Shown: piece after piece, positions 42,411 through 45,338 of the stretch
Numbering within the stretch: the first letter of the stretch is position 1
How the letters are laid out: every line of letters starts with the position of its first letter
Source of the DNA: Gillisia sp.
GTDB lineage: Bacteria > Bacteroidota > Bacteroidia > Flavobacteriales > Flavobacteriaceae
DNA: 64,000 nt
NCBI GenBank assembly: GCA_024635655.1
Contig: JAGXIL010000039.1
Location: 86,849-150,848, forward strand
Direction of reading: 5' to 3'
The notes under the pieces: generated by a model
Database searches by the model: none
Seen by the model: only the letters and a program-made list of their open reading frames with translations
What the model was told of the DNA's origin: nothing
Translations under genes and position numbers: made by a program

Positions 42411-43388
42411 TTACTTGTATAATACCTTTTTCACAGCCTTGATAACATCTTCACTATTAGGCAACCATTCCTTAAATAGTTCAGGAGAATATGGTGCCGG
42501 AGCATCTGCGGTGTTGATCCTCGCGATTGGCGCATCCAGGTAATCAAAAGCTTTTTCCTGTACCTGGTAAGATATCTCTGTTGAAATATTTCCAAACGGC
42601 CAGGATTCCTCAAGGATCACCAGTCGATTAGTCTTTTTCACAGATTTTATTATAGTGTCTATATCTAATGGACGGATAGTTCTAAGGTCAATGATCTCAC
42701 AGGAGATATCTTCTTTTTCCAGTTCTTCGGCAGCTTTATAAGCTTCTTTGATGATCTTTCCAAAGGAAACAATAGTAACGCTGGTTCCTTCACGCTTAAT
42801 ATCTGCAACTCCTATAGGAATAACATACTCTTCTTCAGGCACCTCGCCTTTGTCCCCGTACATTTGCTCACTTTCCATAAAAATCACGGGATCATCATCC
42901 CGAATTGCCGATTTCAGAAGTCCTTTTGCATCATAAGGATTTGAAGGAACTATAACTTTTAACCCGGGACAATTGGCATACCAGCTTTCAAAAGCCTGGG
43001 AATGTGTAGCCGCAAGTTGTCCTGCCGATGCCGTTGGCCCTCTGAAAACAATGGGTATATTGAATTGCCCACCGCTCATATGACGCATTTTGGCAGCATT
43101 ATTTATGATCTGGTCGATTCCCACCAAAGAGAAATTAAAGGTCATGAACTCAATAATAGGCCGGTTGCCGTTCATTGCACTTCCAATTCCAATTCCGGAA
43201 AAACCAAGTTCAGATATGGGGGTGTCTATTACTCTGTCTGGTCCAAATTCATCCAGCATTCCTTTTGAAGCTTTGTAGGCTCCATTGTATTCGGCAACCT
43301 CTTCTCCCATTAAATAAATGCTTTCATCTTTTCGCATTTCTTCGCTCATGGCCTGCTGAATAGCTTCTCTAAATTGGATTGTACTCAT
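42411..43388 (-). CDS. pdhB: pyruvate dehydrogenase E1 component, beta subunit
   Basis: A 325-residue thiamine-diphosphate enzyme subunit that, with an alpha subunit coded elsewhere, decarboxylates pyruvate for acetyl-CoA formation. Features: N-terminal FREAIQQAMSEEMRKDESIYLMGEEV with the ThDP-activating Glu, GFSGIGIGSAMNG, GPTASAGQLAATHSQAFESWY, and a C-terminal transketolase domain with RLVILEESWPFG. No E1 alpha or E2 gene lies alongside, so this gene is detached from a classical pdh operon. A branched-chain E1 beta is less likely. Confidence 0.92.
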   Translation of the reverse strand: MSTIQFREAIQQAMSEEMRKDESIYLMGEEVAEYNGAYKASKGMLDEFGPDRVIDTPISELGFSGIGIGSAMNGNRPIIEFMTFNFSLVGIDQIINNAAKMRHMSGGQFNIPIVFRGPTASAGQLAATHSQAFESWYANCPGLKVIVPSNPYDAKGLLKSAIRDDDPVIFMESEQMYGDKGEVPEEEYVIPIGVADIKREGTSVTIVSFGKIIKEAYKAAEELEKEDISCEIIDLRTIRPLDIDTIIKSVKKTNRLVILEESWPFGNISTEISYQVQEKAFDYLDAPIARINTADAPAPYSPELFKEWLPNSEDVIKAVKKVLYK

Positions 43389-43470: not shown

Positions 43471-43494
43471 ATTTACTATGCGCGCATAGTAAAT
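43471..43494. promoter_or_regulatory. perfect 24-bp palindrome upstream of etfB
   Basis: The half-site ATTTACTATGCG is followed by its exact reverse complement, 24 bp in all, in the gap between the divergent pdhB and etfB genes and about 60 bp before the etfB ATG. A perfect symmetric site of this kind is what a dimeric MarR- or TetR-type regulator binds. No regulator gene lies in the window. I infer control of etfBA by fatty-acyl-CoA status. Confidence 0.6.
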
Positions 43495-43554
43495 TTCCAT
43501 ATAATTTCCTTATCTTCGTCTTTGAGAATATAAACCTATTTAAAGATTACATAG

Positions 43555-44301
43555 ATGAAGATATTAGTATGTATTAGCCATGTGCCCGATACTACCTCAA
43601 AGATCAATTTCACCAATGATAATACTCAATTTGATTCCAACGGGGTCCAGTTTGTCATTAATCCAAATGACGAATTTGGACTTACCCGGGCTATGTGGTT
43701 CAAGGAGAAGCAAGGTGCAAGTGTAGATGTAATAAACGTTGGTGGGCCCGAGACAGAACCCACCTTACGTAAAGCTCTTGCTATTGGTGCCGATTCTGCC
43801 ATTCGAGTCAATACCGCTGCTAAAGACGGATTTCAGGTTGCCAAACAACTTGCCAAAGTAGCAGGTGACGGGGGTTATGACCTTATTATAGCCGGAAGGG
43901 AATCGATTGACTATAACGGGGGAATGGTTCCGGGAATGCTTGCCGCATTGCTGGGTGCTAATTTTGTAAATACCTGTATAAGTCTTGAAGTTGAAGGTAA
44001 TGATGTTAAAGCCATTCGGGAGATCGATGGGGGTAAAGAAAGCGTTACCACTTCCCTGCCGCTTGTTATTGGAGCTCAAAAAGGGCTGGTAGAAGAGAGC
44101 GACCTGAAGATCCCAAATATGAGGGGAATTATGCAGGCCAGATCCAAACCTTTAAACGTGGTGGAGCCCGATGATGTTGAAGTGCGAACCGAAGCCCAAA
44201 AATTTGAAAAACCTGCTCCAAAAGGCGCGGTTAAACTCATAGATCCTGATAATCTGGACGAGTTGGTGAATTTACTTCACAATGAGGCGAAAGTGATTTA
44301 A
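43555..44301 (+). CDS. etfB: electron transfer flavoprotein, beta subunit
   Basis: A 248-residue ETF beta. The N-terminus MKILVCISHVPDTTSKI and the AMP-binding DLIIAGRESIDYNGGMVPGMLAALLG region are typical. With EtfA it carries electrons from acyl-CoA dehydrogenases (such as the one at 218-1585) to the ETF:quinone oxidoreductase or respiratory chain. It is followed after 68 bp by etfA, so etfBA is an operon. The 24-bp palindrome is about 60 bp upstream. Confidence 0.96.
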   Translation: MKILVCISHVPDTTSKINFTNDNTQFDSNGVQFVINPNDEFGLTRAMWFKEKQGASVDVINVGGPETEPTLRKALAIGADSAIRVNTAAKDGFQVAKQLAKVAGDGGYDLIIAGRESIDYNGGMVPGMLAALLGANFVNTCISLEVEGNDVKAIREIDGGKESVTTSLPLVIGAQKGLVEESDLKIPNMRGIMQARSKPLNVVEPDDVEVRTEAQKFEKPAPKGAVKLIDPDNLDELVNLLHNEAKVI

Positions 44302-44369: not shown

Positions 44370-45338
44370 ATGTCAGTTTTAGTATATCCAGAATCCGAAG
44401 ACGGGAATTTCAAGACAGTATCTTTCGAAGTTGCCTCTTATGCAAGGGAAATAGCCCAGAATATGCAAACCACAGTTACCGCTGTTACTTTTAATAATTC
44501 AGAGGCTTCCGAACTTGGCAATTATGGAGTAGATAAGGTCCTTAATGTAAAAAACGATAAATTAAAGAATTTTAATGCTGAAGCTTATGCCGATGTTATA
44601 AAGCAAGCTGCAGAAAAAGAAGGCGCAAAAGTGGTTGTTATAAGCCAAAGCGCAAACAGCAAATATCTTGCACCGCTTTTGGCAGTGCATCTTAACGCAG
44701 GTTATGCATCTAATGTCGTTGCACTTCCTGAAAGTACTGAACCTTTTACTGTTAAGAGAACTGCATTTACCAACAAAGCCTTTAATTTCACCAGTATGAC
44801 TACTGATGTAAAGATCATAGGAATTTCTAAAAATGCTTTTGGGCTGAAGGAAAACCCCGCAGATGCTGTAGTTGAAGAATTTTCGCCAACTTTGACGGGA
44901 GAAGATTTCACCGTGGAGGTCACTAATGTAGATAAGGCCAGAGATAAAGTTACTATTGCCGATGCAGAAATTGTAGTTTCCGGAGGCCGGGGGCTTAAAG
45001 GCCCTGAAAATTGGGGAATTTTAGAAGATCTTGCCGATACTTTGGGAGCCGCAACTGCCTGTTCCAAACCTGTAAGCGATATGGGATGGCGGCCTCACCA
45101 TGAGCACGTAGGACAAACCGGAAAACCGGTAGCCTCCAACCTGTACATCGCTATTGGAATTTCAGGAGCCATTCAACATTTAGCAGGAATAAATGCTTCA
45201 AAAGTAAAAGTTGTAATCAATAATGATCCTGAAGCCCCATTTTTTAAGGCTGCAGACTACGGTGTGGTTGGAGATGCCTTTGAAATAGTACCTAAACTAA
45301 ATGAAAAACTAAAAGAATTTAAAGCTAAAAACGCATAA
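44370..45338 (+). CDS. etfA: electron transfer flavoprotein, alpha subunit
   Basis: A 322-residue ETF alpha. The C-terminal FAD domain reads IVVSGGRGLKGPENWGILEDLADTLGAA, then GWRPHHEHVGQTGKPV and LYIAIGISGAIQHLAGI, with the adenine-binding region near INNDPEAPFF. The N-domain begins MSVLVYPESEDGNF. It pairs with EtfB upstream. A strong terminator follows about 20 bp after the stop. Confidence 0.96.
   Translation: MSVLVYPESEDGNFKTVSFEVASYAREIAQNMQTTVTAVTFNNSEASELGNYGVDKVLNVKNDKLKNFNAEAYADVIKQAAEKEGAKVVVISQSANSKYLAPLLAVHLNAGYASNVVALPESTEPFTVKRTAFTNKAFNFTSMTTDVKIIGISKNAFGLKENPADAVVEEFSPTLTGEDFTVEVTNVDKARDKVTIADAEIVVSGGRGLKGPENWGILEDLADTLGAATACSKPVSDMGWRPHHEHVGQTGKPVASNLYIAIGISGAIQHLAGINASKVKVVINNDPEAPFFKAADYGVVGDAFEIVPKLNEKLKEFKAKNA

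Follow-up and report, generated by a model that had tools for sequence, protein, structure and literature searches.

Beta-oxidation is repressed by FadR, a GntR-type protein, in E. coli, and by the TetR-type FadR, PsrA and FadP. In the corresponding regulons, a single sensor of the acyl-CoA type governs the genes of uptake, activation and beta-oxidation and those of ETF type. The same regulon logic would apply to the locus described here, found in a 64-kb stretch of Gillisia sp. DNA (the window, meaning the whole stretch that was analysed). The components are different: the proposed regulator is a MarR protein, its operator has the core TATGCNNGCATA, and neither the protein families nor the operators are related to those of FadR, PsrA and FadP.

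Within the MarR family, FabT of Streptococcus and Enterococcus also controls fatty-acid metabolism and its gene is likewise the first of the operon under control (PMC13046290). FabT represses synthesis genes, with acyl-ACP as co-repressor (PMC5487221). Here, in contrast, the operon is degradative (marR-fadB-fadA), and marR is not the first gene of a fab synthesis operon. Another likeness is with CouR, FerC and HcaR, the MarR proteins of hydroxycinnamate catabolism, since a MarR repressor of catabolic genes is proposed here as well. CouR and FerC are released by hydroxycinnamoyl-CoA esters, i.e. by CoA thioesters (PMC5487221), and CouR is among the structural matches of the model predicted for the present regulator, P0001. 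The substrates of these three proteins are aromatic, unlike here, and P0001 is ~20% identical to them, no closer than to MexR, SarZ or MarR. A search of mostly open-access literature returned no published description of this regulon and no regulator assigned to fatty-acid breakdown in Bacteroidota. Each component (MarR regulator, palindromic operator, fad regulon) belongs to a known kind, and the distribution is wide.

The palindrome between pdhB and etfB

The relevant features of the window are the following.

43471..43494, no strand: operator candidate, a 24-bp perfect palindrome, recognised from the sequence and kept upstream of etfB in 30/30 loci
43555..44301, + strand: etfB, electron transfer flavoprotein beta subunit, probable target (PF01012, E 2e-31)
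44370..45338, + strand: etfA, electron transfer flavoprotein alpha subunit (PF01012 and PF00766)
42411..43388, - strand: pdhB, pyruvate dehydrogenase E1 beta, divergent neighbour (PRK09212, above cut-off)
43511..43518, + strand: putative -7 box of the etfB promoter, TATCTTCG, a variant of TAnnTTTG, 16 nt after the palindrome

The palindrome, ATTTACTATGCGCGCATAGTAAAT, consists of two perfectly complementary 12-nt arms without spacer (ATTTACTATGCG and CGCATAGTAAAT). It is located 60 bp from the ATG of etfB (43555) and 82 bp from that of pdhB (43388); etfA, on the same strand as etfB and separated from it by 68 bp, is probably co-transcribed with it. The original prediction had been of a perfect 24-bp palindrome, free of terminator features and at about these distances from the two genes, and all of this proved correct. 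It had also considered a chance occurrence very unlikely, and rightly so: no other perfect palindrome of at least 16 bp exists in the window, and 100 shuffles of the window that preserved dinucleotides gave none of at least 24 bp (the mean was 0.1 at 20 bp or more).

A single strand of the palindrome can fold (-8.5 kcal/mol, z -3.7 versus shuffles), as would be needed for an RNA hairpin or a terminator; it does so better than the shuffles, like any palindrome of this kind. An intrinsic terminator, i.e. a GC-rich stem followed by a T run, was looked for at this place and no terminator-like site was found; moreover, the palindrome lies upstream of the predicted start site of etfB. The lack of a terminator-like element and of a T run ruled out the terminator or hairpin reading, and the shuffles, together with conservation of the site upstream of unrelated genes, ruled out chance: the probability left to either is practically nil.

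Copies of the site and the linked MarR gene

Pattern searches of the assembly (3.46 Mb, 82% complete) gave six exact copies of the core, against one for a reversed-pattern control. Three are intergenic: the window site, a copy at C85:211343 that begins 38 bp ahead of the start codon (ATG) of a MarR-family gene, and a copy at C91:35407 that sits between a 4HBT thioesterase gene and an alpha/beta hydrolase gene. The other three are in coding sequence (one at a contig edge), in genes without common theme. A one-mismatch copy, TATGTATGCATA, was found ~100 bp before the gene for an outer membrane porin of the FadL type (PF03349, E 1e-57). The three exact copies in intergenic DNA and this one-mismatch copy all precede fatty-acid genes, namely etfB, marR-fadB-fadA, the thioesterase/hydrolase pair and fadL. 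A loose 20-base pattern with three mismatches was too noisy to be of use (116 matches versus 76 for the control).

The MarR-family gene (G000:C85:211381-211869, outside the window) codes for P0001. It is followed by the gene of an 801-aa 3-hydroxyacyl-CoA dehydrogenase/enoyl-CoA hydratase and then by a thiolase gene, hence the order marR-fadB-fadA; an acyl-CoA ligase gene is present ~4 kb upstream on the same strand. In Aquimarina, fadD is directly upstream of marR and fadE comes after fadA, and most of these loci have a further site near the fadD promoter position. In a profile search P0001 matched PF01047 with 42.6 bits (curated cut-off 24.6); its best score against the named MarR equivalogs of NCBIfam was 41 bits for a cut-off of 200, which assigns it to none of them. 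The structure model (pLDDT 79) has the MarR fold (Foldseek probability 1.00) and resembles MexR, SarZ, MarR, PcaV and CouR about equally, so that the structure search gave a fold without singling out a functional class.

The palindrome looks like the DNA site of a MarR-type regulator encoded elsewhere. Of the two types initially put forward for a dimeric regulator, MarR is retained, given the PF01047 match of the linked gene, and TetR is not: P0001 matches MarR/winged-helix families only, and no TetR DNA-binding domain was found in it. That the regulator gene lies outside the window is true for MarR, since none of the nine PF01047 matches of the genome is on the window's contig (C74). The two-fold symmetry of the site is consistent with binding by a homodimer. 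As is characteristic of the MarR family, a palindromic operator is present in the regulator's own promoter (30/30 and 79/80 loci, see below), and marR would be autoregulated; none of the other MarR-like genes of this genome has a copy upstream.

Conservation of the site and its spacing to promoters

The exact core was found upstream of etfB, and upstream of the marR orthologue, in 30/30 loci compared for each. The comparison was extended to 80 named genomes (Gillisia, Salegentibacter, Zunongwangia, Mesonia, Aquimarina, Kordia, Aequorivita, Flavobacterium, Winogradskyella, Psychroflexus and others): marR is preceded by the exact core in 79 of them and by a one-mismatch form in the remaining one. 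More distant families of the same class were represented by 20 loci, in which the site upstream of marR was exact in 14, had one mismatch in 4 and was not found in 2; in most of them, fadB-type genes come after marR. The site is kept across dozens of genera. The thioesterase promoter has the exact core in 16 of 17 matches, and each of the 15 genomes from the genus has TATGTAYGCATA in its fadL promoter. One half-site of the fadL operator (L256-L270) is TATGT in all 15 and always the half away from the gene; this conserved asymmetry may set a weaker response. The expectations that the site would be conserved before etfB in related genomes, and that a genome scan would reveal clustering near beta-oxidation genes and a MarR or TetR gene, were both confirmed, because the copies gather at the regulator's beta-oxidation operon and at other fatty-acid genes and because the site is kept at etfB.

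Of 297 genomes sampled from across the phylum, 55 contained the regulator, and these 55 belong to the same class. When both the regulator and an etfB gene are there, the site precedes etfB in 39 of 46 genomes, versus 0 of 7 in genomes without regulator (p 2e-5); inclusion of one fragmented, 80%-complete assembly of the same genus, with the site and without detected regulator, changes the latter figure to 1 of 8 (p 1e-4), and these p values are indicative only because the genomes are related. The seven genomes that have the regulator and lack the site before etfB were counted against the explanation preferred below.

The operator also varies with the recognition helix of the regulator. In lineages where the helix reads TSLSR or TSLTR, the base at position -6.5 of the operator is C or T: in the named genomes, this applies to the left side of all 82 sites and to the right side with one exception. 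In families with the RSLTR helix, a G is found at -6.5 in at least one half-site, giving GTATGC. This correlation supports direct recognition by this MarR; it may correspond to a single evolutionary event.

One oddity was revealed by the 99%-complete genome G046, which has three well-formed sites (L116, L117 and L118) and no recognisable orthologue of the MarR regulator. A substitute MarR was sought there, and the only strong one is unrelated and without site; either the regulator was lost or another protein reads the same site. It could be taken to mean that a different regulator binds the site generally and that the linked marR gene is just one target. However, the site and the MarR gene go together across families, they co-occur at etfB, the change of recognition helix tracks the operator base, and the other MarR-like genes of this genome lack an upstream copy: we regard a different regulator as improbable.

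The position of the site relative to promoters was informative as to its target. In flavobacteria, the -7 box of sigma-A promoters is TAnnTTTG and occupies -12 to -5 (PMC9723704). At marR, 60 of 79 named genomes have this box starting 5 or 6 nt past the palindrome, and in many of the others a TAnnTTTA variant occupies the same position. The putative box at etfB is TAnnTTCG and starts 15-17 nt past the palindrome in 30/30 loci, despite a palindrome-to-ATG distance ranging from 49 to 128 nt. This box (43511-43518 in the window) deviates from the sigma-A consensus in a conserved manner, with TAnnTTCG instead of TAnnTTTG in all 30 loci.

The spacing between palindrome and pdhB is, in contrast, loose: from 69 to 1249 bp in the 30 loci, and from 66 to 1249 bp with more distant loci added. 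From the fixed spacing to the etfB box and this loose distance, we concluded that etfB is probably the target of the site and that pdhB probably is not. The joint control of the two genes put forward in the original prediction, coupling pyruvate oxidation with fatty-acid electron flow, agrees with the location of the site between divergent genes, here and in many relatives. It did not withstand the comparison of spacings, and the site stays at etfB even where over 700 bp separate it from pdhB or where pdhB is not a neighbour; such a coupling is thus very improbable.

By the same reckoning, the palindrome spans ~-41 to -18 at marR (centre near -29.5) and ~-52 to -29 at etfB (centre near -40.5). 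Both placements cover the -33 region, which favours repression, and they are offset by about one helical turn. The centre near -40.5 is also compatible with activation, since activators can sit there: the same MarR on the same operator could activate etfB, or have a dual role, repressing marR-fadBA, where the site is closer to the -7 box, and activating etfB from ~-40. The shift of about one turn upstream at etfB and the rigid spacing in both promoters would fit with that, and MarR activators exist (PMC5487221). Most characterised MarR proteins are repressors, however (PMC5487221), there is still overlap with the expected -33 region at etfB, and ETF and beta-oxidation are needed together, all of which makes activation unlikely.

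Proposed mode of regulation and further sites

We are fairly confident that the palindrome is the operator of an autoregulated MarR repressor, P0001, which controls beta-oxidation and would be released by a fatty acyl-CoA. What is read directly from sequence is the site and its conservation, which genes it accompanies, its association with the regulator across genomes and its overlap with promoters; the binding by P0001, the sign (repression rather than activation) and the ligand are what we infer from them and from known MarR proteins. In this scheme, a P0001 homodimer would bind both TATGC half-sites and, by covering the -33 region, deny sigma-A RNA polymerase access to the etfB promoter. 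It would bind like sites before marR-fadB-fadA, before fadL, whose product is a fatty-acid uptake porin, and between the thioesterase and hydrolase genes. Upon uptake and activation of fatty acids, a fatty acyl-CoA, or else the free fatty acid, would enter the MarR pocket, by analogy with CouR and FerC; ligand-bound P0001 would let go, and ETF would be made together with the beta-oxidation enzymes. ETF is the electron acceptor of acyl-CoA dehydrogenase, and etfBA should therefore rise with beta-oxidation. The link first suspected between a dimeric MarR-type regulator, etfB and beta-oxidation is upheld by the copies, their conservation and the marR-fadB-fadA linkage.

For flavobacteria, this provides a regulator gene, a precise operator and a testable list of targets, as well as a motif ready for the annotation of many genomes. 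Fish mucus and plasma cause a strong induction of beta-oxidation genes in Flavobacterium psychrophilum (PMC9723704); the regulator is a candidate explanation for this induction, the site having been seen in other Flavobacterium species.

More tentatively, one MarR could be the FadR counterpart of much of the class Bacteroidia, governing uptake, beta-oxidation and ETF, in some genera also genes of the synthesis type (fabH, a second KAS III gene, a FabK-like reductase), and perhaps acting as activator at some targets and as repressor at others, depending on operator phase. Copies of the core were seen near further genes in relatives. In four other genera (L091, L097, L100 and L106), one is located just past the stop codon of rpmF; a conserved terminator follows it directly, and the copy lies ~165 bp before fabH. 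The fabH gene of these loci has a TAATTTGC box which resembles the TAnnTTGY (SM5) promoter type. In four genomes (L094, L099, L102 and L118), a copy precedes the gene of a FabK-like/nitronate-monooxygenase-type flavoprotein and overlaps the -7 region in three of them. A copy is also found before a TonB-dependent-receptor-like gene in three genera (L090, L095 and L107), and between a second KAS III gene and the gene of a large secreted protein in two (L101 and L111).
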